From Brevundimonas fluminis (GTDB taxonomy: Bacteria > Pseudomonadota > Alphaproteobacteria > Caulobacterales > Caulobacteraceae): a stretch of DNA of 64,000 bases. Shown here piece by piece: positions 168 to 21,040 of this stretch. The DNA is taken from assembly GCF_003934285.1 (NCBI RefSeq), contig NZ_RQWJ01000003.1, forward strand, positions 678,501 through 742,500. The letters are read 5' to 3'. How positions within the stretch are numbered: the first letter of the stretch is position 1; the number at the start of each line of letters is the position of its first letter. The notes below the pieces were generated by a model. That model saw only the letters and a program-made list of their open reading frames with translations, made no database searches and was not told the origin of the DNA. Position numbers and translations under genes: made by a program.

Positions 168-1229
168 CTACCCGCTGGCCGTAGTCGGCAGCCTGCCTCT
201 GAGAGTACACGTCGGATTGGGCTCGCCCGCGCCAGGGCATCCAAGCAGGCCCACCATATCTGGGTGGCGGGCGATGGTCTGGTTGACGCGGAACTGCGAC
301 GGGGGGTGAGTGGAAGACTGGGGCGCGTCGTAGCCGTCCGTGGCGTAAGCGATGATCTTGACGACCTGCTCCGGCGATGGGGGCCCTGCTGGGCGAGCGC
401 GCAACCTCCGCGCCAGGACCAAGGCGCCCCAATGGTCTGCCGTTATTTCATCAGCCAATCCCGGTTCCCAGATATACGTCACCTGGGTAATGGACCGGTA
501 GCAGGCCGCCATACCCGCATAGGCCTGAGGCCAGACCGACGAGTCTATGGCGTGGCCGAGTTCATGACCAAGAGTGTACGCCATGGCGTCCATCGCGTCG
601 GCGCGGCTCGCGTCGAAGTCGTGCAGCCCTAAAGCTAGGCCGGGGCAAAGCACCACGCTGCCGAGCGCAAAAAAGGCGTTTGGCTTTAAACCATTCCGCC
701 CGCAAGACGATTGATATGACCGGTAGGCTTGCACGGTCAGTTCGGGTTCACCGGTCGCATTGCCCTTTCGTCGCTCGTGACTGATATAGCTGCCAACATA
801 GTCTTCCGCAGTCTGGATCAGCGTCACGCCTTTCAGCTGTTCCGCCATCAAGCCAGACAGTTCGGTTGAAAGGCCGGCGTCGGTTCGGAGATGCGCCGCT
901 ATAGCTGCTTTCGCCGCCTCAAAAACTTCCTGAGCCATTGGGCCATCAGGCCCCCAGCTGGTGATCTCGTCAGCGCGGCGGGCGCCTTCAGAGGTAGCCG
1001 ACCGGGCCATCGCGTTGAACATGCTGGGAGTCGCGGTGGGGCCAAGTGTGTCCCAGTATTTGGCGTTGAGGCTTGTATCGAGCTGGTCAGCGTCGGCGCG
1101 TCCTTTCGGCACGGCGGAGGTGAAACCGAAGAGATCGCCGCACCTTAAGGGATAGTCCTGATCGGTCGCCTTTGCTGACGCGAAGCCCGCCAAGGCGACG
1201 GCGCTGACCCCCACCAACCAGGTTCGCAT
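168..1229 (-). CDS. exported gluzincin-type metallopeptidase (M13-like signature)
   Basis: Probable periplasmic zinc metallopeptidase of about 353 aa. Residues 1-21 form a signal peptide (MRTWLVGVSAVALAGFASAKA). The zinc motif HELGHAID lies at about residues 222-229, and about 35 residues later comes DEITAD, which supplies the ExxxD third-ligand pattern typical of neprilysin-like (M13) gluzincins. Several Cys residues suggest disulfides. The start was set at 1229 because a GGAGG lies 8 nt upstream; the ATG two codons earlier has only 2 nt of spacing. The rest of the protein does not look like classic 670-aa M13 enzymes, so this is a short or distant relative. The next gene on the same strand, about 260 nt upstream, encodes a TIMP-like protein. 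The metallopeptidase fold is likely; the substrate is unknown. Confidence 0.7.
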   Translation of the reverse strand: MRTWLVGVSAVALAGFASAKATDQDYPLRCGDLFGFTSAVPKGRADADQLDTSLNAKYWDTLGPTATPSMFNAMARSATSEGARRADEITSWGPDGPMAQEVFEAAKAAIAAHLRTDAGLSTELSGLMAEQLKGVTLIQTAEDYVGSYISHERRKGNATGEPELTVQAYRSYQSSCGRNGLKPNAFFALGSVVLCPGLALGLHDFDASRADAMDAMAYTLGHELGHAIDSSVWPQAYAGMAACYRSITQVTYIWEPGLADEITADHWGALVLARRLRARPAGPPSPEQVVKIIAYATDGYDAPQSSTHPPSQFRVNQTIARHPDMVGLLGCPGAGEPNPTCTLRGRLPTTASG

Positions 1230-1423
1230 CTGCATCGCCTCCGTCTTCAAGAGGAAGCTCGTCGACCCTCGTGTCTTGGTCAAGCTGCACGCGCGCTAGT
1301 GAACCTAAAGACCAAGCAAACCATGGCAGACATCACGGCATGGCGCTGTCGTTTCAGGTGCTGAGGTCCGCCACCTACCCCTGGCTGACGTCAGCGGGTC
1401 CGCCTTACGCCAAACCGCCGCAA

Positions 1424-1472
1424 GTCCGCTCTAGCTTGCGACGCCTGGGGCAGCTCCCGACCCGTTGCAGAC
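1424..1472 (-). repeat. 49-nt dispersed repeat, degenerate copy
   Basis: Read on the minus strand this begins GTCTGCAACGGGTCGGGAG and ends GAGCGGAC, which is the same length and has the same first half and end as the copies at 16669 and 17034. The second half is strongly degraded. It sits in the roughly 260-nt gap between the metallopeptidase and the TIMP-like gene. Confidence 0.5.
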
Positions 1473-1491
1473 AGAGCCTCCCCAAGAGTTC

Positions 1492-1896
1492 TTAGCGCGC
1501 AGCGGCTTGCTCGAAGTCCCGCAGCGCAAACTGAGGTCTGGCGCAGGAGCTTGTGAAAAGCGTGCCGCCTTGCGTGCGGGCAAGAACCAGAACCTCTCGT
1601 GATTGGACGAAGTCTATACCGCAGGTAGCTCCCCAAGCACCGGGCGCGTGCGCGATCCGCTGAACAGCGTTGTGCCTCCCCTTCAGGGTGCGGGAGACGA
1701 CGAACTCCGTCACCAAGTGTCCTTCGCGCCCCGTTGCCGAGTCAGGCACGGTCGATACCGCCTGTCCAACAAACGCGACATCGGCATGCCCGAGTTGGTC
1801 CGAGGCACTCCTCCAAGTTTGGCAGGAGCATGCCCACGCCACTCCGGCTATCAGCACCAAGGCAGTTGCACAGATCAGCGTGGTAATGATGCGCAT
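1492..1896 (-). CDS. TIMP/NTR-like exported protein
   Basis: Exported protein of 134 aa with a signal peptide ending in AWA, so that the predicted mature protein starts CSCQ. A mature N-terminal Cys-x-Cys is the hallmark of tissue inhibitors of metalloproteinases, where Cys1 chelates the catalytic zinc. The body follows the same pattern as the second copy at 11234: an ADVAFVGQAV strand, a VSRTLKG stretch, an internal CG..F, a strand VLVLART and a late SSC. Because the signal peptide ends in AxA and no lipobox is present, cleavage by signal peptidase I is expected. It lies upstream of, and on the same strand as, the HExxH metallopeptidase at 168-1229. An inhibitory role is inferred only from the fold and N-terminus. 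Confidence 0.6.
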   Translation of the reverse strand: MRIITTLICATALVLIAGVAWACSCQTWRSASDQLGHADVAFVGQAVSTVPDSATGREGHLVTEFVVSRTLKGRHNAVQRIAHAPGAWGATCGIDFVQSREVLVLARTQGGTLFTSSCARPQFALRDFEQAAAR

Positions 1897-3681: not shown

Positions 3682-4401
3682 GGCCCGGTCATGAGTCACA
3701 GATCGATCTGTTCCGACATCTCCAGGGCGTCGTCCACCTCGATGCCGAGGTACCTGACGGTGCTCTCCAGCTTCCTGTGGCCGAGCAGGAGCTGACAGGC
3801 GCGAAGGTTGCCGGTCTTCTTGTAGACGAGCGACACCCTGGTGCGCCTGAGGCTGTGGGTCCCATAGCCCTGCGGTTCGAGGTCGACCATCCGAACCCAC
3901 TGATCCACGAGCCGTGCGTATTGCCGGGTGCCGATATGCTGGCCCGGGCGGCTGCGGCTCGGGAACAGCCAGTCATCTTCCCGCTCGCCGCACACCTTAA
4001 GCCAGGCCGCGATCGCGTCGCGCGCCGGCTCCGTGATCTCGAACGGCACCGGCCTCCCCGTCTTCTGCTGGATGACGATCGAGCGCTGGCGAAGCGCGCC
4101 GCCGGGAGCCACGTCACTGACCCGAAGCCGGACCAGGTCACAGGCTCGCAGCTTGGCATCCAGGGCGCAGTTGAACATGGCGAGATCGCGAACCCTCTTC
4201 GCGACTTTCAGCTGCTGTCGAATGGCCCAGATGTGCTTCGGCTTGAGTGGCGCCTTGGGGCCGATCAGACGGCCGGCATTCCATGGGCGCGTGGGTTGCT
4301 TGAACAGGTCAGACTGGCGCATGGCCAACCTCCATTGAGGTCGCCTCCCTGTCCGTGGCCCAGTCTACGCTCTCTGAATCTGTTCAGCGCCAGTTGCGGA
4401 C
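3682..4401 (-). repeat. 720-bp recombinase unit, copy 1 (inverted relative to copy 2)
   Basis: The block is nearly identical to 15510-16228 on the opposite strand. Homology runs from a GTCCGCAACTGGCGCTGAAC start, about 70 nt before the recombinase ATG, to GACCGGGCC about 15-30 nt after its stop. Outside these limits the sequences diverge abruptly. One single-base indel separates the copies in the leader. Copy 1 has lost the terminator hairpin that follows copy 2. Confidence 0.85.
3696..4328 (-). CDS. tyrosine recombinase, catalytic domain only (copy 1)
   Basis: A 210-aa site-specific recombinase/integrase of the tyrosine family. It has the catalytic Arg in KLRACDLVRL (about residue 61), a Lys in IVIQQKTGRPV, the H-x-x-R box THSLRRT, the second His in LLGHRKLEST and the nucleophile Tyr in TVRYLGIE. 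There is no N-terminal SAM-like core-binding domain, so its size resembles FimB/FimE-type invertases rather than phage integrases. It differs from the second copy at 15582 at only about five residues. The two copies face opposite ways around an 11-kb block. Recombinases of this size occur as repeated stand-alone genes in related bacteria, as I recall; the target site is unknown. Confidence 0.9.
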   Translation of the reverse strand: MAMRQSDLFKQPTRPWNAGRLIGPKAPLKPKHIWAIRQQLKVAKRVRDLAMFNCALDAKLRACDLVRLRVSDVAPGGALRQRSIVIQQKTGRPVPFEITEPARDAIAAWLKVCGEREDDWLFPSRSRPGQHIGTRQYARLVDQWVRMVDLEPQGYGTHSLRRTRVSLVYKKTGNLRACQLLLGHRKLESTVRYLGIEVDDALEMSEQIDL

Positions 4402-7505: not shown

Positions 7506-7598
7506 GCTTTCTTCCCTATTTGTGACGCGATCGGCAGCGACTTAAGTGACGGCCTTGCAGACCGAAATTTCAGCTCGCCGGTTCAGCGGCTCCGATAG

Positions 7599-8408
7599 GT
7601 GCTGTCAGTCTAACGCTAACCCGTCTCTACTGATATGCTGAAAAGTCCATGCAGGGCAGGGACTTATGGCGAAACTCAGCTTCAAGCGACACCGGTTCAA
7701 AAGCGACGTCATCAAGCGGGCGGTCTGGCTTTACTACCGCTTCAATCTCAGCCTCCGGGATGTTGAGGAGATCCTCGCCGAGCGGGGGATCGACGTGTCC
7801 TACGAGGCCATCCGCGACTGGTGTCGGAAGTTCGGATTGCAGATCGCGAGGAACCTGCGGCGACGCCGACCGGGGCCTTCGCCGCGGTGGCATCTGGACG
7901 AGATGGTGAGCGTGATTGGCGGCCGGAACATGTACGTCTGGCGGGCGGTCGACGACGAAGGGGAGGTGCTCGGCTCCGCCGTCGAGCGCCGGCGGGACGG
8001 GGCGACCGCCGAGAGCTTCCTGAGAAAGCTCCTGCGTGATCAGCCCGTTATCCCAGAGTCGATAGTCACCGACGGTCTCGGCTCCTACAAGACCGCGCTG
8101 GATCGGCTGGGTCTAGGCGACCGCCATCGCCCCGGCCGCCTCCGGGAGAACAACCGCGCTGAGAACTCCCATCTGCCGATCCGTAAGCGCGAGCGGCAGA
8201 TGATCGGCTTCAAGAGCGCCGCCTCAGCGCAGCGGTTCCTGACGGTCCACGCCGCCGTCTACAACGCCTTCTACACCCAGCGGCATCTGGTCAGCCGCAG
8301 CACGCTCCGGCTGTTCCGGGCGCATGCGCATGCGGCTTGGAATGCGGCTGTGGCGTCGTGAGCGAGGCCGTTCAACTTGGCGATGGGCGGGAGTTAAGTT
8401 GACAGCAC
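7599..8408 (+). mobile_element. IS6-family insertion sequence, copy 1 (810 bp)
   Basis: Bounded by GTGCTGTCAGTCTAAC on the left and its imperfect complement GTTAAGTTGACAGCAC on the right, with one transposase gene inside. The same length and ends occur at 20230-21039 in the same orientation. The flanking 8-mers (TCCGATAG left, TGCGACGC right) are not duplicated, so either rearrangement has occurred since insertion or the duplication has decayed. Confidence 0.85.
7666..8361 (+). CDS. IS6-family DDE transposase
   Basis: Transposase of 231 aa, the usual size for IS6. An N-terminal zinc-free helix-turn-helix region (LSLRDVEEILAERGIDVSYE) precedes the DDE core: D in WHLDEMVSVIGG, D in IVTDGLGSYKTALDR and E in NNRAENSHLPIRKRE. 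The frame is intact. It differs from the copy at 20297 at roughly a dozen residues, so the two are not recent duplicates of each other. Confidence 0.93.
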   Translation: MAKLSFKRHRFKSDVIKRAVWLYYRFNLSLRDVEEILAERGIDVSYEAIRDWCRKFGLQIARNLRRRRPGPSPRWHLDEMVSVIGGRNMYVWRAVDDEGEVLGSAVERRRDGATAESFLRKLLRDQPVIPESIVTDGLGSYKTALDRLGLGDRHRPGRLRENNRAENSHLPIRKRERQMIGFKSAASAQRFLTVHAAVYNAFYTQRHLVSRSTLRLFRAHAHAAWNAAVAS

Positions 8409-8425
8409 TGCGACGCCACCTTCAC

Positions 8426-8662: not shown

Positions 8663-8994
8663 TCAACAGCGCAAAAATGCACACTTGCGTTGCCAAAAGG
8701 GCTCGCCACTTCCGCATCGGCAAGCGGATTTCATCAATGTCGGCCAAGAGTCAGATGCGGCCATTCCCGAGGCGGCTCAGCTGGGACGTCCGCTGCTGAC
8801 TCATAGCCGACCTTCAACCCGTCCGCTTCAGGCCCGACACTGAAGCTTAGGCCCAGCACGTCCGCCTCTCACTCGTAGCAGGGAACGGGAGCGGCCGTTT
8901 CCCGTCGCCAGCAGTGTCAGGATTGCGACTTGGCAATAGCGCGCGCGACAACCTCCGGACCGCAACCATCAGCTTTAAAGGGTTGGAGGTGTAA

Positions 8995-9498
8995 ATGAAA
9001 ACCGTCATCCTCTTCGAGGAAAGGATCACAGTCATGATCAAAGCTCTTTTGGTCGCCTCGGTGCTTCAGCTCACGCTCGCCGCATCGGTGAATGCGCAGG
9101 AGATCGGCATTGAGCCCATCTATGGTCGGGTGAGCCTGACCGCAGGCGGGGATCACGCCGTGGAGCTAAAGGCCGGCGGACTGGAAAACATCGACGTCAC
9201 TGAAATGCTTCCCGATTGCCGGGGCTTCGTGTCGCGAGGCCCTCACTTCGTGGTCGACTACACCGCTGGCGAAGCCCCCTTGGTGTTCTTGGTGCATTCG
9301 AAAGCGGACACGACCTTGTTGGTGAATTTTCCGAACGGGAGCTGGGCGTGTGACGACGACAGTGGCCTCAACGGCGGCGATCCTGGCTTGGTGATCTTTG
9401 CCGCGCCATCGGGCCAATACGACATCTGGGTCGGCGCCAAGGAAGAATGGGCAACGCCCGACGCCACCTTGCGCATCACAGATAGCGCAGTCGACTGA
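8995..9498 (+). CDS. exported PPC-like beta-sandwich protein
   Basis: Exported protein of 167 aa. The ATG at 8995 has a strong ribosome-binding site (GGAGGTGTAA then ATG), although an internal ATG at 9034 would give a more compact signal peptide (MIKALLVASVLQLTLAASVNA). The mature part follows the PPC-like pattern found in many small alphaproteobacterial exported proteins: FVVDYTAGEAPLVFLVHS, then TTLLVNFPNGSWACDDDSG, then QYDIWVGAKEE. Two Cys (DCRG and WACDDD) may pair. Function is unknown. Confidence 0.6.
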   Translation: MKTVILFEERITVMIKALLVASVLQLTLAASVNAQEIGIEPIYGRVSLTAGGDHAVELKAGGLENIDVTEMLPDCRGFVSRGPHFVVDYTAGEAPLVFLVHSKADTTLLVNFPNGSWACDDDSGLNGGDPGLVIFAAPSGQYDIWVGAKEEWATPDATLRITDSAVD

Positions 9499-9576
9499 CT
9501 CCCTGTCTGAAGCACGCGGGGCCGGGAAAAATCGCGGTCTATGGCTCGCTTGAGAATTGGCGAAATGAGAGGGGTA

Positions 9577-10668
9577 ATGAACCAGACGCGCAGGAACCTC
9601 TTGGCTGGGGGACTGGCCCTCGCGGCGACGTCGCCAACCTTTGCGCGGCAAGCTTACCCCGCCATCGACGCCGAGGCCGCGAGCTTCCTGGCCACGACGC
9701 GCGCGCCGGGCTTGCAGGTCGCAATGGCGCGCAACGGCACGCTCGGCTTCGTCGGGGCCTGGGGCAGGGCCGATCAGACCGGCGCCCCGCTGACGCATGA
9801 TCACCGGTTCCGCATCGCGAGCCTTTCCAAGCCGATCACCGCGGCGGCCGTCATGCGGCTCATCGAAGCGGGCCGACTGACCCTGGACTCCACGATCTTT
9901 GGACCGGGATCCATTCTCGGCGATCGGTTCGGCCCGACCTCCGGGCCGCTCCGGGCGCTTCGTGTGCGTCACCTGCTCAACCACACGGCAGGAGGGTGGA
10001 CCAACGACGGGCGTGATCCGGTCTTTGCCCATCCCGAGCTCGATCAACGTCAGCTCATCGCCAAAACCCTGGCCGAGCATCCGCTGGAAGCCGCGCCCGG
10101 CACACGGCAAAGCTATTCGAACTTCGCCTATCTCATCCTTGGCAGGGTCATCGAGCAGGTGACGGGGGAAACCTATGAGGGCTGGGTTCGTCGCGACGTC
10201 CTGTCCCGTTGCGGTGCGGCGGGCATGCGCGTCGGGGACCGCGCACGGGGCGTCGGCGAGGTGGAATATCGCGCGCTGACGATCTTCGATGATCCGACCG
10301 CGGTGAACGTGCGCCGCATGGACGCGAACGGCGGCTGGATCGCCAGCGCCAGGGAGCTGGTGGGATTCGTGACGGCCGTCGACGGGACGGAGGGCCCCGG
10401 ACGAATCCTGCGTCCTGCCTCGGCGAGGCTGATGGCCACCGGGCCGTTCGCCGGCGCGGCCTACGGCCACGGATGGCAGATCAACCAGTGGGACAACTGG
10501 TGGCATACGGGCATCATTCACGGCACGGCCGCCTTCATGTGCAAGACGCGCTCGGGTTATGTGATGGCGGCCCTGACCAACACCGGCGGCCCTGGCTCGG
10601 ACGTCACGCTGAAGCTGGACCAGATGATGTGGCGCATGGCCGCCGCGATCCCGGGATGGCGGCCTTGA
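9577..10668 (+). CDS. Tat-exported serine hydrolase, beta-lactamase class C family
   Basis: Serine hydrolase of about 363 aa. The start was set at 9577 because GAGAGGGG precedes the ATG and a twin-arginine signal follows (MNQTRRNLLAGGLALAATS). The catalytic motifs of the class C / penicillin-binding-protein-like family are present: SLSK (S-x-x-K), YSN (Y-x-N) at about residues 180-185 and HTGIIHG near the C-terminus in the KTG position. Such proteins include esterases, D-aminopeptidases and DD-peptidases, so true beta-lactamase activity cannot be claimed. It acts in the periplasm. Confidence 0.8.
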   Translation: MNQTRRNLLAGGLALAATSPTFARQAYPAIDAEAASFLATTRAPGLQVAMARNGTLGFVGAWGRADQTGAPLTHDHRFRIASLSKPITAAAVMRLIEAGRLTLDSTIFGPGSILGDRFGPTSGPLRALRVRHLLNHTAGGWTNDGRDPVFAHPELDQRQLIAKTLAEHPLEAAPGTRQSYSNFAYLILGRVIEQVTGETYEGWVRRDVLSRCGAAGMRVGDRARGVGEVEYRALTIFDDPTAVNVRRMDANGGWIASARELVGFVTAVDGTEGPGRILRPASARLMATGPFAGAAYGHGWQINQWDNWWHTGIIHGTAAFMCKTRSGYVMAALTNTGGPGSDVTLKLDQMMWRMAAAIPGWRP

Positions 10669-10832
10669 CGCGCGATCGCTGCGACGTTGCGGTGTTGGAA
10701 TCCGATTTCCTTTTCTCGACCTCCATGATCGAGGCGCTTCTGGATTCGGACTCCTCTACGAGGCTTAAATACCTTCAATGCGGGCGATCCAGGAATCCCA
10801 CAAATGTCTGACTTAAGGAGAGTATCCTGCAA

Positions 10833-11180
10833 ATGGCGCGACTACTGAAAGCCTTCTTCATCGTGTCGTCATCGACGGTTTTGTTGGGATGCGAGACGAT
10901 ATTCCTGTCTCCCGAACCGGAAGTTCACAGCACCGAATGGGGGCAAATCACCGTTTGGCATTATCCCCCTGGCTACAACAGCTCGACCTACGGGTACCGA
11001 GAGCTCTGGGCGAAGAATACATCAAACACCCCCTACTGCGTGGTGGTGGCTCGTGCGGGCGGCAAGCAGCTCGTGACGGCGCCGGCGAACACGGAAAAGC
11101 TGCTTCTCGGGCGCGGACAAGTACCGGAAGGCGCCAGCGTGGATTGGATGCCGGGATCCTGCGAGGCTTGGGGAACCTGA
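10833..11180 (+). CDS. small lipoprotein
   Basis: Lipoprotein of 115 aa with lipobox LLGC at residues 17-20 after a hydrophobic stretch (AFFIVSSSTVLLGC). AAGGAG lies about 11 nt before the ATG. The mature part contains a Tyr/Trp-rich strand region (EWGQITVWHYPPGYNSST) and two more Cys (TPYCVVVAR and PGSCEAWG) that could form a disulfide. No family recognised. Confidence 0.6.
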   Translation: MARLLKAFFIVSSSTVLLGCETIFLSPEPEVHSTEWGQITVWHYPPGYNSSTYGYRELWAKNTSNTPYCVVVARAGGKQLVTAPANTEKLLLGRGQVPEGASVDWMPGSCEAWGT

Positions 11181-11233
11181 ACGGGACCACAGGAATGCGG
11201 GCAACCATCTCGCCCACTCAGCAATGCCTGTGA

Positions 11234-11659
11234 TCATCGAGCCTGAAGCTTAATCAGCTCCGCTTCATATCGCCCGAGCGGCAGCCAGTCGCGGCTGCAA
11301 GCCTGGGCGTAAAGGCGCCCTTCGGCTCGACGCGCGAAGACTACGTGTTCGCGGTCGCGGTCGAACTGCATGCCGCAAAGGCTGCTGTCACCGGACTGGT
11401 GACGAACGGCGGTCCACGTTCCGACGTCGCCCTTGAGCGACCGTTCGACCCTGAAGACGGTGGCGCTGATAGGTCGGCCGCCAGCCTGGCCCACGCGAAC
11501 GACGCGCTCGACCCTGCCGACGAAGATGACGTCGGCCTCGTCCACCTGGTCGGCGGGATCCGGGGGAAGGCAGGTGCATGCACAAGCCGGCCCGGCGGGG
11601 GCTGCAAGGCCTAGTGCAATCGCCAGCACCGCAGCCTGGACCATATGCGTCCGCGACAT
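11234..11659 (-). CDS. TIMP/NTR-like exported protein
   Basis: Exported protein of 141 aa with start at 11659 (AGGGAGA at about 7 nt). The signal peptide ends in ACA and the predicted mature N-terminus is CTCLPPDPADQ, very close to the CTCVPP start of animal TIMPs. ADVIFVGRVERV, VERSLKG, CGMQF, HVVFARR and ACSRDW follow in the order seen in the TIMP-like protein at 1492. Four or more Cys are placed for disulfides. It is the last gene of a minus-strand run starting at 13878. No metallopeptidase is immediately adjacent here. Metalloproteinase inhibition is inferred from the family. Confidence 0.65.
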   Translation of the reverse strand: MSRTHMVQAAVLAIALGLAAPAGPACACTCLPPDPADQVDEADVIFVGRVERVVRVGQAGGRPISATVFRVERSLKGDVGTWTAVRHQSGDSSLCGMQFDRDREHVVFARRAEGRLYAQACSRDWLPLGRYEAELIKLQAR

Positions 11660-11771
11660 TTGCGTTCTCCCTGAGCAATCGGCCATTTTCCCGGACTTTC
11701 CGGTAGCGTGTCCCTTCGCCAACGCCACGCAGCCATGCCGTCGTGTCCGCATCGGACAACGGGGGCGCCAT

Positions 11772-12209
11772 TCACTCACGGGGCACCCAAGGCTCCCTGC
11801 CGCGATAGACCGGAGCGATCGCATAGCAGAAGTCGCGCTGCTCGATCGGTGCAAGGGCGCAATCCTCGGTGAACGCCTTGCACAACCAGTACCGATCTGT
11901 GTCCGCGTAGTTGCACTGCCTCTCGGTGAGCGCTCGGCACTCCCAGTAGTCCGAGCGCTCCGCGAGGTTGCAGTTGCGTTCGGAGATCGCCTTGCAGAAC
12001 CAGTAGTGGCTGCGATCCGCCACGCCGCAGTTTCTCCGATCAAGCGCGTAGCAGAACCAGTAAAGGCTGTCGGTGAGTCGGCTGCAGTCGAGCCGCTGTT
12101 CCTGCGTCACGGGGGTCTCCGACGCAGCCGTCATCTGCGCGGCCCGCGCCGATGGAGCCGCTAGAGCCGTCACAAGGCAGAAGGCGAAGGTCCAAAACAG
12201 ATTGCGCAT
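11772..12209 (-). CDS. exported protein of tandem 19-residue Cys repeats
   Basis: Exported protein of 145 aa; signal peptide at residues 1-24 (WTFAFCLVTALAAPSARA). Residues 48-66, 67-85 and 86-104 are three consecutive 19-residue repeats of the form SxYWxCxAxxxRxCxxAxR. A fourth, degenerate repeat covers about 105-123 and a partial one (RDFCYAIA) closes the array. Each full repeat has two Cys and an invariant YW. I know no described family with this repeat. The start at 12209 places AGGA about 11 nt upstream; an in-frame ATG at 12233 lacks a ribosome-binding site. It sits 45 nt downstream of another exported gene, in a probable operon. Confidence 0.65.
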   Translation of the reverse strand: MRNLFWTFAFCLVTALAAPSARAAQMTAASETPVTQEQRLDCSRLTDSLYWFCYALDRRNCGVADRSHYWFCKAISERNCNLAERSDYWECRALTERQCNYADTDRYWLCKAFTEDCALAPIEQRDFCYAIAPVYRGREPWVPRE

Positions 12210-12254
12210 CTTGGGCGATATCCTGGCGATCATGGGCTGGTTACGCGGGCGTGT

Positions 12255-12749
12255 TTATCTGCTGGCTGCGAGCGCCTGCTCGATGCACCCAAGGGCCGCA
12301 TCGCGCGTGCCGCCGGCCACGTCGGGTCTGGGGTGATCGAAATCGCGGACGTAGATCGACCGGAGGTAGCCTTCGCTCAGCGGACCTATGCACTCCATTC
12401 TCTGATAGGAGCCGCGTTCGCGAGTGTCGCCGAGAAGGATGACCACCAGCGGCTTTGCGGAGGCGCGCTGCGGAATGGCGGCCCGTACGCATTGGCGGCG
12501 TGCGCCGGTCGGGTTCGGGTCTTCGGGCACGCAGTGTCGAAACACCTCGCCGTCGAAGGAAGGCCGTCCGTAAATCAGCCGGCCATCGGTTTCGAGCGCC
12601 TCGATCATTCGCACGGTCTGGCCGGCGACAGGGTCTCCGGGGCCGCCTGTGGAAAGCACGACGATCTCCGCATCAGCAACGCCGGGAGCTTCAGACGCGG
12701 GGGTCAGCGGGGCGGCCAGTAGGGCTGTGGCGAGAGCGGCACGGAGCAT
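12255..12749 (-). CDS. exported hypothetical protein
   Basis: Exported protein of 164 aa with a short signal peptide (MLRAALATALLAAPLTPAS) and GGGAG 7 nt before the ATG. The mature part has a Rossmann-like alternation (EIVVLSTGGPGD, RMIEALETDGRLIYG, PLVVILLGDTRERG) and four Cys (HCVPED, RQCVRA, MECIGP, LGCIEQ). No catalytic signature is recognised. It follows the gene at 12753 by only 3 nt, so both are in one transcript. Confidence 0.55.
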   Translation of the reverse strand: MLRAALATALLAAPLTPASEAPGVADAEIVVLSTGGPGDPVAGQTVRMIEALETDGRLIYGRPSFDGEVFRHCVPEDPNPTGARRQCVRAAIPQRASAKPLVVILLGDTRERGSYQRMECIGPLSEGYLRSIYVRDFDHPRPDVAGGTRDAALGCIEQALAASR

Positions 12750-12752
12750 CGC

Positions 12753-13463
12753 TCACTCCCTTTCCGGTTGAGGCCAAGCGACGGCACTGATGAATCGGTT
12801 GCCATGCCCGGTGCGCCACGCCCCGAGCCGCCGCATAGGTTGACCCTGCTCGGTCATCTGGACATAGACGACGGTGGAGTCCGGGACAGGAGGGGCAGGA
12901 GGCGGCGGAGGAATGACGGGCACGCCCGGAGGAGGAGGCGGCGGCACATAAGGCACTTCGCCGGGCCAGAAAGGCCCCGCGGCGGCACGGCACGGGCTGG
13001 TGAGAGCCGCTTCAATCGCCTGCACGTCCGGTGTGCCGAGGCGACCGCCCACAGGCTTCCAACGGTCAGTGTCCGATGCGATCGTGGCCTCTGCGCCGGG
13101 TTGGGGCGGCTGCTGGACGACCCGCGGGTCGCGGTTCTGTTTCCAAAACCACCATGTGCCGTCGCTCTCCTGCCAGACGGCCGTCCAGATCGTGTTGCCG
13201 TGGAGGCCGCCAGGCGGCGCGATGGCTCGAAACAGCACGCGGGCGTCTGGGGGCGGCGATCGCCAGGGACCGTCGGGAATGACGAACTCCGCGAACAGCT
13301 CGTCCTCGTAAGTGAGGTTGCGAGCGCGGGCGTCGGCGTACGCTGGGTCGGTGCGGACGGCTTCGAACCGCGCGATCTGCTCGGGAGATGCAACGCGGCA
13401 CTCAGCCGGATCCTGAATGTGACCGGCCAGAGCCGGAGAAGTCGCGATGAACTCAAAGAACAT
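12753..13463 (-). CDS. Pro-rich hypothetical protein, probably exported
   Basis: Hypothetical protein of about 236 aa. The start was set at 13463, where GAGG precedes the ATG by 6 nt; this ATG lies inside the last codons of the upstream membrane-protein gene (overlap 11 nt). A weak signal-like stretch opens the protein (MFFEFIATSPALAG). Residues 100-120 are Trp-rich (TAVWQESDGTWWFWKQNRD). Around residue 175-200 there is a proline-rich linker (VPPPPPPGVPVIPPPPPAPP). No family recognised. Confidence 0.5.
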   Translation of the reverse strand: MFFEFIATSPALAGHIQDPAECRVASPEQIARFEAVRTDPAYADARARNLTYEDELFAEFVIPDGPWRSPPPDARVLFRAIAPPGGLHGNTIWTAVWQESDGTWWFWKQNRDPRVVQQPPQPGAEATIASDTDRWKPVGGRLGTPDVQAIEAALTSPCRAAAGPFWPGEVPYVPPPPPPGVPVIPPPPPAPPVPDSTVVYVQMTEQGQPMRRLGAWRTGHGNRFISAVAWPQPERE

Positions 13464-13878
13464 TAGACACCTCGCCATCAGTGATCGGGCGGCCGCGGAC
13501 CAAACCGAACGCTGCGCCGCCCACCGCTCCTGCGAATGCGGTCATCAGCAACAACACCCAGCCCGGCTCTCTGTGCTCGTCAGGTGTTCCGCCGCTGGAC
13601 AACACGATCAATCCCGAGAGCAGACCGACGATCGCCCCTGCCAGAATGAACCAGGGCAGGCTGTCGCGGCAGGTCGCCTTGAGCAAAAGAAGTGAAGAGC
13701 CGCCTCCGACCACCGGCGCAGGAACGGTGAACAGGAGGCCGAAGAGTCCGATCATCAAGGTCCCGAAAACCCAAGACGTCGGGTCCGCGCCTGAGGACGC
13801 GCTGAGGGCGGCTGCGAGCGAAAGGCTCGACGCAATGGGAGCCGCTGCAAACGCCAAAATCGTACGACCCAGAGACAT
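13453..13878 (-). CDS. small integral membrane protein
   Basis: Hypothetical membrane protein of 141 aa with about four hydrophobic segments (residues 5-25, 37-62, 75-95 and 107-127) and a GAGGAG 7 nt before the ATG. No family recognised. It appears to lead a minus-strand run of five genes (13878 to 11234) that otherwise encode exported Cys-containing proteins, and could be their membrane partner; this is inference from order only. Confidence 0.55.
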   Translation of the reverse strand: MSLGRTILAFAAAPIASSLSLAAALSASSGADPTSWVFGTLMIGLFGLLFTVPAPVVGGGSSLLLLKATCRDSLPWFILAGAIVGLLSGLIVLSSGGTPDEHREPGWVLLLMTAFAGAVGGAAFGLVRGRPITDGEVSNVL

Positions 13879-14023
13879 CGCTCACTCCTCGGAGATCGAA
13901 GTGAAGCTGGAGGCGGCATCCAGCGTCAAGGTCAGAAGGAGCGGACGTCAGGTTGCGTCATTCGCCTGCCGCCGAAGCGTTCTGAGCCGCACACGCCGGA
14001 GCCGGGGCCCAGCTTGATCTACC

Positions 14024-14827
14024 CTACGGTTGGGTCGCAGGAGCCGCGGTGATGTTCATCGAGTAAGCGCCCGTCTCCCGAAGGCCGCCGCTGGTCACCG
14101 CGATGAAATAACTCCCTGCTCTGGGGAGCAGCCCAGACGCGCGAAATTCTTGAGGATCAACCTCGCCCGACCCGGACGTGGAATCTAGTTCTACAAAATA
14201 CCCCCGCCGGCACGACGGGTCCCTGTAGACGTGCCCGACAGGGCTGAAATCCGCAGATCGGACATTCAGCATCACCTGCACCGGTCCGGCGACGGTGACC
14301 TCATAGCAGTCGAAATATCGGCCAGGCGCCAGGTTGGCATCAACCGGAGACAACTCGCCGGACACCTCACTGCCGACGGTCATCGTCAGGGGATCCGCGC
14401 GCAGGCGGGCGGCGTCGGGCGTGTCCGCCACAGCCAGCCCGATCATGTAGTCTCCGACGTCCCGTGAATCCGAGCTGCTGGCCCGGAACGACCAAGTGCC
14501 CCCTTGATCCAGCGTCGCCTCAAGATGCGCTGCTCGAAAGCCGAACCCGCCGTCGTCGTCGGCGTCCTCCCATTCCCCCTGGCAGCCGGGTCCACGATGC
14601 AACGCGACCCAGGCATCCACGTCGATGGAGCGCATGACGATTTCGATCGACTGGCCTGCGACGCCCACAAAATCATGACAATCGTAGTGTGCGTCCCTGT
14701 GATCCACCGGGTCCTCCGGAGCCAATGCTCCGAAAACTACCTGCCCGGGTAAGATGGACTGAGCCAGGCAAGGCGCTACGCCGCAAGTTGTGGCGACGAG
14801 AACGGCGGCGCTTAGGAGGGATTTCAT
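14024..14827 (-). CDS. exported protein with two PPC-like domains
   Basis: Exported protein of 267 aa with signal peptide (LLSAAVLVATTCGVAPCLAQ). Two successive beta-sandwich units are visible. Residues about 35-130 contain HYDCHDFVGVAGQSIEIVM and VALHRGPGCQ. Residues about 150-260 contain YFDCYEVTVAGPVQVMLNV, VYRDPSCRR and GSYFIAVTSGG. Each unit has the paired Cys pattern and the YxIxVT ending of pre-peptidase C-terminal domains. There is no catalytic domain. GGAG lies 9 nt upstream of the ATG. It is the third PPC-like protein in this region. Confidence 0.6.
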   Translation of the reverse strand: MKSLLSAAVLVATTCGVAPCLAQSILPGQVVFGALAPEDPVDHRDAHYDCHDFVGVAGQSIEIVMRSIDVDAWVALHRGPGCQGEWEDADDDGGFGFRAAHLEATLDQGGTWSFRASSSDSRDVGDYMIGLAVADTPDAARLRADPLTMTVGSEVSGELSPVDANLAPGRYFDCYEVTVAGPVQVMLNVRSADFSPVGHVYRDPSCRRGYFVELDSTSGSGEVDPQEFRASGLLPRAGSYFIAVTSGGLRETGAYSMNITAAPATQP

Positions 14828-15021
14828 CAGTTATGGCTCCGGTTCGAGGAGAATGGAACGACTTGAGGCGATACTGGGACTGTAGGCAGTGGTTGGACGC
14901 GGAGCCAAACGCCGCTGCGATTGTGGTTGTGCAGATGATCGCAAGCACGCTTGTCGGTCGAAAAGGGCCATGCTGTTCTGCGCACGCGGTATAGTAGCGA
15001 GCGTGGGGGAGAGCGAGAACG

Positions 15022-15509: not shown

Positions 15510-16228
15510 GTCCGCAACTGGCGCTGAACAGATCCAGAGAGCGTAGACTGGGCCGCGGACAGGGAGGCACCTCAATGGAGGTTGGCCATGCGCCAGTCTG
15601 ACCTGTTCAAGCAACCGAAGCGCCCATGGAATGCCGGCCGTCTGATCGGCCCCAAGGCGCCGCTGAAACCGAAGCACATCTGGGCCATTCGACAGCAGTT
15701 GAAGGTCGCGAAGAGGGTTCGTGACCTTGCGATGTTCAACTGCGCCCTGGATGCCAAGCTGCGAGCCTGTGACCTGGTTCGGCTCCGGGTCAGTGACGTG
15801 GCGCCTGGCGGTGCGCTCCGACAACGGTCGATCGTTATCCAGCAGAAGACGGGGAGGCCGGTGCCGTTCGAGATCACGGAGCCAGCGCGCGACGCAATCG
15901 CGGCCTGGCTCAAGCTCCGTGGCGAGCGTGAAGATGACTGGCTGTTCCCGAGCCGCAGCCGACCGGGCCAGCATATCGGCACCCGGCAGTACGCACGGCT
16001 CGTGGATCAGTGGGTTCGGATGATCGACCTGGAACCGCAGGGCTACGGGACCCACAGCCTCAGGCGCACCAGGGTGTCGCTCGTCTACAAGAAGACCGGC
16101 AACCTTCGCGCCTGTCAGCTCCTGCTCGGCCACAGGAAGCTGGAGAGCACCGTCAGGTACCGCGGCATCGAGGTGGACGACGCCCTGGAGATGTCGGAGC
16201 AGATCGATCTGTGACTCAGGACCGGGCC
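15510..16228 (+). repeat. 720-bp recombinase unit, copy 2
   Basis: Inverted copy of 3682-4401. It starts GTCCGCAACTGGCGCTGAAC and ends in GACCGGGCC. The GTCCGCAAC start resembles the start of the 49-nt dispersed repeats. Identity is close to complete over the whole block, including the 70-nt leader, which suggests the unit, not just the gene, is what moves or was duplicated. Confidence 0.85.
15582..16214 (+). CDS. tyrosine recombinase, catalytic domain only (copy 2)
   Basis: A 210-aa tyrosine recombinase almost identical to the one at 3696. All catalytic residues are kept: Arg in LRACDLVRL, THSLRRT, LLGHRKLEST and the Tyr in TVRYRGIE. The substitutions seen are T13K, VC to LR in the LKxxGERE stretch, V to I in VRMxDLE, and L to R directly after the nucleophile Tyr. 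The gene has a GGAGGT-like sequence upstream (CAATGGAGGTTGGCC) and is followed by an 11-bp-stem terminator. Function as a site-specific recombinase is clear from the family; the site it acts on is not. Confidence 0.9.
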   Translation: MAMRQSDLFKQPKRPWNAGRLIGPKAPLKPKHIWAIRQQLKVAKRVRDLAMFNCALDAKLRACDLVRLRVSDVAPGGALRQRSIVIQQKTGRPVPFEITEPARDAIAAWLKLRGEREDDWLFPSRSRPGQHIGTRQYARLVDQWVRMIDLEPQGYGTHSLRRTRVSLVYKKTGNLRACQLLLGHRKLESTVRYRGIEVDDALEMSEQIDL

Positions 16229-20207: not shown

Positions 20208-20229
20208 TCTTTCAGCGGGCCCTGGACCG

Positions 20230-21039
20230 GTGCTGTCAGTCTAACCCTAACCGGTCTCTACTGATATGCTGAAAAGTCCATGCAGGGCAGGGACTTATGG
20301 CGAAACTCAGCTTCAAGCGGCACCGGTTCGAAAGCGACGTCATCAAGCGCGCGGTCTGGCTCTACTACCGCTTCAATCTCAGCCTCCGGGACGTCGAGGA
20401 GATCCTCGCCGAACGCGGGATCGACGTCTCCTACGAGGCGATCCGCGACTGGTGCCGGAAGTTCGGATTGCAGATCGCCAGGAACCTGCGGCGACGCCGA
20501 CCGGCGGCTTCGCCGCGGTGGCATCTCGACGAGATGGTGAGCGCGATCGGCGGGCGGCACATGTACGTCTGGCGCGCGGTGGACGACGAAGGGGAGGTGC
20601 TCGGCTCCGCGGTCGAGCGTCGGCGGGATGCGGCGACCGCCGAAAGCTTTCTGAGAAAGCTGCTGCGGGATCAGCCGGTTGTGCCAGAGACGATCGTCAC
20701 TGACGGCCTGGGCTCCTACAAGACCGCGCTGGATCGGCTGGGCCTGAGCGACCGCCATCGACCGGGTCGCCTCCGCGAAAACAATCGCGCGGAGAACTCG
20801 CATCTGCCGATCCGGAAGCGCGAGCGGCAGATGATCGGCTTCAAGAGCGCCCCTTCTGCCCAGCGGTTCCTGACGGTCCACGCCGCTTTCTACAACACCT
20901 TCTACACCCAGCGGCATCTTGTCAGCCGAGGCACGCTTCGGAAGCTCCGGGCGCAGGCGCACGCGGCCTGGAATGCGGCTGTGGCGTCGTGAGTGAGGCC
21001 GTTCAACTTGGCGATGGGTGGGAGTTAAGTTGACAGCAC
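20230..21039 (+). mobile_element. IS6-family insertion sequence, copy 2 (810 bp)
   Basis: Same length and terminal repeats as 7599-8408 (GTGCTGTCAGTCTAAC left; GTTAAGTTGACAGCAC right). Its right end interrupts a DUF3489 gene, whose remaining 3' part starts at 21041. No 8-bp target duplication (CTGGACCG left, TTGGCTGC right). Confidence 0.85.
20297..20992 (+). CDS. IS6-family DDE transposase
   Basis: Intact transposase of 231 aa, roughly 94 percent identical by eye to the copy at 7666. The DDE residues are kept in WHLDEMVSAIGG, IVTDGLGSYKTALDR and NNRAENSHLPIRKRE. The differences between the two copies are scattered, which argues for independent arrival of related elements or an old duplication. 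Confidence 0.93.
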   Translation: MAKLSFKRHRFESDVIKRAVWLYYRFNLSLRDVEEILAERGIDVSYEAIRDWCRKFGLQIARNLRRRRPAASPRWHLDEMVSAIGGRHMYVWRAVDDEGEVLGSAVERRRDAATAESFLRKLLRDQPVVPETIVTDGLGSYKTALDRLGLSDRHRPGRLRENNRAENSHLPIRKRERQMIGFKSAPSAQRFLTVHAAFYNTFYTQRHLVSRGTLRKLRAQAHAAWNAAVAS

Positions 21040-21040
21040 T

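Follow-up and report, generated by a model that had tools for sequence, protein, structure and literature searches.

A bacterial family of TIMP-like exported proteins in Brevundimonas fluminis, and the half-size neprilysin-like peptidase encoded beside one of its members

In this work, we describe two small, predicted exported proteins, encoded in a 64,000-nucleotide stretch of Brevundimonas fluminis DNA (contig NZ_RQWJ01000003.1, positions 678,501 to 742,500; hereafter the window), which resemble the N-terminal domain of animal TIMPs. We give a probability of roughly 0.6 to the reading that they belong to a bacterial family of single-domain N-TIMP-like proteins, devoid of one TIMP disulphide, which inhibit a metallopeptidase by plugging its catalytic zinc. 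A preliminary description of the window had paired one of them with the exported metallopeptidase encoded next to it, a proposal which is considered separately below. The features that carry the main argument are these:

1492..1896, minus strand: TIMP-like protein P0001, 134 aa, predicted exported (translation; AlphaFold 2, AF2, model; Foldseek and VIA searches)
1831..1896, minus strand: predicted signal peptide of P0001, residues 1-22, ending AWA (sequence)
1822..1830, minus strand: codons for the predicted mature N-terminus Cys-Ser-Cys of P0001, residues 23-25 (sequence)
11234..11659, minus strand: P0003/P0014, another TIMP-like protein (141 aa), predicted exported, with CTCLPPDP as putative mature N-terminus (Pfam TIMP, PF00965)

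The AF2 model of the 1492 protein (pLDDT, the predicted local distance difference test, 84.5) has a predicted NTR/OB fold nearest to N-TIMP: its top PDB matches, by Foldseek and VIA, are TIMPs, at 16-22% identity in the structural alignments, and Cys23 pairs with TIMP residue 1 in both the structural alignment and the sequence profile. The 11234 protein exceeds the Pfam TIMP cut-off (25.9 bits vs 23.1) and matches TIMP-3 of the PDB with an E-value of 0.0046 in phmmer. The TIMP likeness that the preliminary description had suspected in both proteins is thus borne out, by structure prediction and Foldseek for the former, by Pfam for the latter. Bacterial sequences are already included in the Pfam TIMP family, in agreement with the precomputed PF00965 label carried by P0014 and P0017. 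No NCBIfam match was obtained with the 1492, 11234 or 168-1235 proteins, the last being the neighbouring peptidase.

The two TIMP-like proteins are homologous to each other, and the genome encodes four such paralogues in all, the others lying at C4:11857-12240 and on contig 7, the latter in a stretch (L024) that is a diverged duplicate of the surroundings of the 11234 gene. Signal peptides were assigned by eye. The translation of 1896-1492, minus strand, reads MRIITTLICATALVLIAGVAWA up to the putative cut point, and then CSCQTW, placing AWA directly before the CxC motif, as had been described. The translation of 11659-11234, minus strand, begins MSRTHMVQAAVLAIALGLAAPAGPACACTCLPPDP; here the ACA before CTC expected for a TIMP-like N-terminus is present, while a cut after GPA, before CACTC, is also possible, so that the mature CTCLPPDP proposed earlier is one of two options.

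Profile searches of other genomes scored part of the candidates (up to 31 per genome in the genus, 10 in the class and phylum samples, 5 in the family), and members may have been missed. The CxC region was read in 33 genome-search matches, 19 of which, scoring above 50 bits, are taken as clear members; 14 of these come from the genus, four of the 14 from the window's genome. Cys-(Ser/Thr)-Cys directly follows a triplet ending in Ala in 18 of the 19 (17 A-x-A and one V-x-A, where the four 11234-type proteins are taken as ACA-CTC and not as the alternative GPA-CAC). In these 18, the two cysteines that come next fall at positions 63-73 and 89-100. The exception, in G044, lacks CxC at that place. 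A20 and A22 are invariant in the 17 rows of the TIMP-like alignment. Of the 17 homologues that searches with P0001 retrieved in addition to itself, P0008, P0010, P0012 and P0020 are omitted from this alignment; P0020 has no annotated signal peptide. Because it is kept across the homologous family, this genome's four members included, the CxC motif after a cleavage-like site is, judging from the sequences, no chance pattern. Among 73 crudely called open reading frames (ORFs) of the window, 19 start with a hydrophobic run, and A-x-A-C-x-C is found in one of these, the 1492 gene; the caller overlooked the 11234 gene, which has it as well.

Six weak same-genus matches (19-24 bits) without CxC were not counted as clear. 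Four related, exported-looking proteins of the genus (L035, L036, L037, L039) have AxA before a Cys but no CxC, with a mature start C[LVM]PPP and, later, FVGRVVS; they are perhaps an NTR-like sister family lacking the second Cys.

In the mechanism that we propose, signal peptidase would cut exactly before Cys1, whose free amino group and carbonyl would be laid on the catalytic zinc of a metallopeptidase, while Ser/Thr2 would enter the S1' pocket; disulphides Cys1-Cys70 and Cys3-Cys96 (mature numbering) are assumed by analogy with TIMP. In TIMP-2, Cys1 sits on the zinc and Ser2 in S1' (PMC3779175), and Ser, Thr or Lys at position 2 has been tied to inhibition (PMC3679795). The inhibitor would work in the periplasm or outside the cell, combining a chemistry like that of N-TIMP with a setting like that of Inh, and its role, by the same analogy, is likely to protect the periplasm or the surface of the cell, a function that has been proposed for Inh proteins, which inhibit serralysins. 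The fold of Inh is a lipocalin-like barrel, unlike that of the TIMP-like proteins. Inh/AprI (Pseudomonas AP Inh) is nonetheless alike in being an exported bacterial protein whose N-terminus, freed by signal cleavage, would be placed on zinc (PMC4070987). Its gene is close to aprA, that of its protease, while beside the window's genes no serralysin gene was seen. The half-size neprilysin-like neighbour is only one target candidate.

Several observations weigh against an inhibitory function of this kind. P0001 itself matches no Pfam family. One N-TIMP disulphide, which we take to be Cys13-Cys124 in TIMP-1 numbering, is missing, the cysteines of only two being conserved, and the profile has no cysteine opposite the third N-terminal one of TIMP-3; the TIMP N-domain holds three disulphides (PMC3679795). 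Seven of the 14 weaker matches lack CxC, and in five of the other seven position 2 is occupied by Asp, Glu, Lys or Gln; this position is Glu in one of the 17 aligned rows (P0013), and P0010, a close relative outside the alignment, lacks the last cysteine. NTR folds also have other roles, and AceES-2 of hookworm, likewise a single-domain TIMP-like NTR protein, is reported to be inactive, failing to inhibit matrix metalloproteinases; it is described as having neither the second Cys nor, at position 2, a residue suited to inhibition (PMC3679795), features that the window's proteins keep. Finally, no metallopeptidase was found that tracks the family: in the 11 same-genus genomes with a clear TIMP-like match, half-size M13-like peptidases (mini-M13) are found in one and M10 peptidases in four.

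The bacterial proteins share with the N-domain of animal TIMPs (TIMP-1/2/3; PF00965) the predicted fold, the predicted mature Cys-Ser/Thr-Cys, two later cysteines in register and a similar domain length. They differ in sequence (16-22% identity for the 1492 model) and, known as they are from sequence and model, in the two absences already visible there: the disulphide and the C-terminal domain of vertebrate TIMPs, the 1492 protein stopping after the N-domain. Single-domain TIMPs are also known in helminths (PMC3679795). Because both elements are absent, and the Pfam cut-off is reached by one of the two proteins, the family is TIMP-like rather than TIMP proper.

The best surviving alternative, which we hold possible at clearly lower odds, is an NTR/OB-fold protein that inhibits no protease, its N-terminal cysteines stapling the barrel and the domain binding some other ligand, as in agrin NtA, PCOLCE or the complement NTR. 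TIMPs, however, come first both by sequence and by structure, and the cleavage-like site is joined to a CxC with Ser/Thr at position 2 in all but one of the clear members; a mere staple would presumably not require Cys at the mature N-terminus.

The neighbouring gene, on which the next alternative depends, has the following features:

168..1235, minus strand: half-size neprilysin (M13)-like gluzincin P0002, predicted exported
552..566, minus strand: HELGH zinc/catalytic motif (sequence; H222, E223, G225 and H226 invariant in 13 of 13 rows)
435..449, minus strand: ExxxD motif with the third zinc ligand of gluzincins, here EITAD (all 13 rows have E261 and D265)
1236..1491: gap of 256 nt between the two genes, from the stop of the 1492 gene to the ATG at 1235

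In the order of transcription, the gene for the 134-aa TIMP-like protein (1896-1492) comes first and the metallopeptidase-like gene (1235-168) next, both on the minus strand. The ORF tool places the start of the latter at a TTG (1283), while ATG 1235 or 1229 is judged likelier. The exported-looking HELGH gluzincin with a downstream ExxxD, noticed earlier on the same strand at about 260 nt, was found as described. ExxxD lies within DEITADHWG, and the predicted model combines HExxH, ExxxD and an M13 fold. Pfam M13 is matched below its cut-off (12.5 vs 24.5 bits), with no match to M13_N, and M48 just above it (20.6 vs 20.3 bits), covering residues 182-230 only; of the 13 mini-M13 members, ten have an M13 match with E<=1, the best being 0.019, and nine have an M48 match at this level. 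Going by the model, the protein appears to be an exported gluzincin, M13-like rather than M48. Chains of neprilysin, ECE-1 and PepO (M13) have 619-698 residues, against 353 aa here, and the genome's own full-length M13 is a 731-residue frame; the half-size peptidases seem to form a rare group of their own among the relatives of neprilysin. Neither promoter-like nor terminator-like sites were found in 1-2700 (0 each), an uninformative result, shuffles giving 0.5 and 2.1. Past the mini-M13 gene, and outside the window, a Pfam M1 peptidase gene (L023:3748-6051, plus strand) stops some 2.4 kb to the left of position 1.

It appears unlikely that the 1492 protein serves as a dedicated inhibitor of this peptidase and shields the periplasm from it, as potempins and Inh do with their adjacent proteases. 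The gene order and spacing favour it, and the mini-M13, at about half the normal M13 length, could have a more open cleft. In Tannerella forsythia, genes for potempins, small inhibitors too, directly precede those of their proteases; potempins are described as lipoproteins in recurrent operons, whereas the window's pairing was seen once (PMC7296668). In addition, the longest contig recorded for the TIMP-like P0020 has 892093 bases, as has that recorded for the mini-M13 P0029, by name from a Brevundimonas metagenome-assembled genome, and the two genes may thus lie on one contig.

Against this stands the distribution of the two families. The TIMP-like profile is matched in 17 of 131 same-genus genomes, clearly so in 11, and a mini-M13 is present in two, both families occurring together only in the window's genome (Fisher p 0.16, this ascertained genome included). 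In the second mini-M13 genome (G017), also the only one returned by a contig scan for the family, the gene lies between those for ribulose-phosphate epimerase and RsmB, with no TIMP-like match; conversely, G011 and G032 have P0001 orthologues (74-76% identity) and no mini-M13 was found in them. No more mini-M13 appeared in 390 same-family genomes, save for two partial matches, to ORFs 700 and 717 residues long. TIMPs act on metzincins and are not known to act on M13 peptidases.

The flanks of 21 other TIMP-like loci, inspected up to 8 kb (clearly less at contig ends, in L018, L057, L059, L060 and L061), with genes called by a crude script, contained no exported HExxH peptidase; counted among these loci are the 11234 gene, that of G044 and the weak matches of G477, G206 and G304. 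Five HExxH ORFs lie near them. That in L054 combines a helix-turn-helix with an IrrE-like M78 metallopeptidase-type domain, 2.7 kb off and without a hydrophobic N-terminal run; those in L061 and L063 are short-chain dehydrogenases, that in L062 is a fatty acid desaturase, and the 2486-residue frame in L058 matches no Pfam family. The hydrophobic-run test was crude enough for L061, L062 and L063 to pass it, though they are no peptidases. The proposed protease-inhibitor pairing did not, therefore, recur in the tested genomes other than the window's own, and the adjoining metallopeptidase gene is probably no fixed partner of the 1492 gene.

A metzincin target, either the genome's RTX-type M10 protease or a protease of other organisms, fits known TIMP biology better than the neighbour. 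M10 peptidases were rejected as a target that tracks the family: they are matched at E<=0.001 in 68 of the 131 same-genus genomes and show no association with it (Fisher p 0.35). The genome's own M10 protease (L076:3584-7900, G000 contig 3) is a 1439-residue frame with HEIGHAIGLSHP, an SLMSYF Met-turn and RTX-like repeats. In a single case, G349, an M10 match (C2:2349) and the TIMP-like gene (C2:12608) share a strand and are separated by about 10 kb.

Lipidation of the first Cys, which would make these proteins lipoproteins without a free N-terminus, is very unlikely because none of the 18 clear CxC members fits the lipobox, position -2 being Trp, Leu, Cys, Glu, His or Arg, although the Cys directly follows Ala and a hydrophobic stretch lies upstream.

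At the search sensitivity used, TIMP-like genes are rare and patchy. Of 385 genomes sampled from the class, 11 match the profile, 9 of them belonging to other genera; of 398 sampled from the phylum, 6 do, with 3 from other genera, among which the match of G1139 lacks a plausible signal peptide, while the Pfam TIMP model alone found 1 of 289 genomes, that of the window. No match to P0001, P0014 or P0002 was present in 72,556 plasmid records.

TIMPs have been described as a metazoan family (PMC9409782), which likely arose in the eumetazoan ancestor (PMC10755359). No description of bacterial TIMPs was met among the matches listed in the open-access literature, which does not establish their absence from print; the Salmonella TimP toxin has the name alone in common. 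With a bacterial family that keeps the fold and, behind a signal-peptidase-like site, the N-terminal cysteines and Ser/Thr2, it becomes possible to test directly how the TIMP mechanism originated; the family could also supply small, two-disulphide TIMP scaffolds. Should bacteria own working TIMPs, acting through Cys1 and Ser/Thr2, with the 1492 gene placed just ahead of that of its target, a stripped-down neprilysin, which we consider improbable, the mechanism would be no animal invention and would extend to gluzincins besides metzincins.

Both TIMP-like genes lie in a part of the window, 1-21040, which looks like accessory, mobile DNA because of its lower GC content (0.62-0.65 in the first 20 kb vs 0.68-0.72), an inverted 720-bp pair, 94% identical (3682-4401, carrying a phage-integrase gene, and 15510-16228), and an IS240-type pair bracketing the 11234 gene:

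7598..8409, plus strand: IS240-type transposase element, left copy (Pfam PF13610; 91.4% identity over 812 bp to 20229-21040)
20229..21040, plus strand: IS240-type transposase element, right copy (identity to the left copy)

The 11234 neighbourhood (8796-14925) has a counterpart in G395 (L052:3521-9672), with 94% identity over 6.2 kb. Directly upstream of the 11234 gene, 11772-12233 encodes a protein that looks exported, contains four repeats with Cys, centred on 'YWxC', and matches no Pfam family above a cut-off; a YWxC-repeat protein is found at the same place in G395 (L052:6213-6755).
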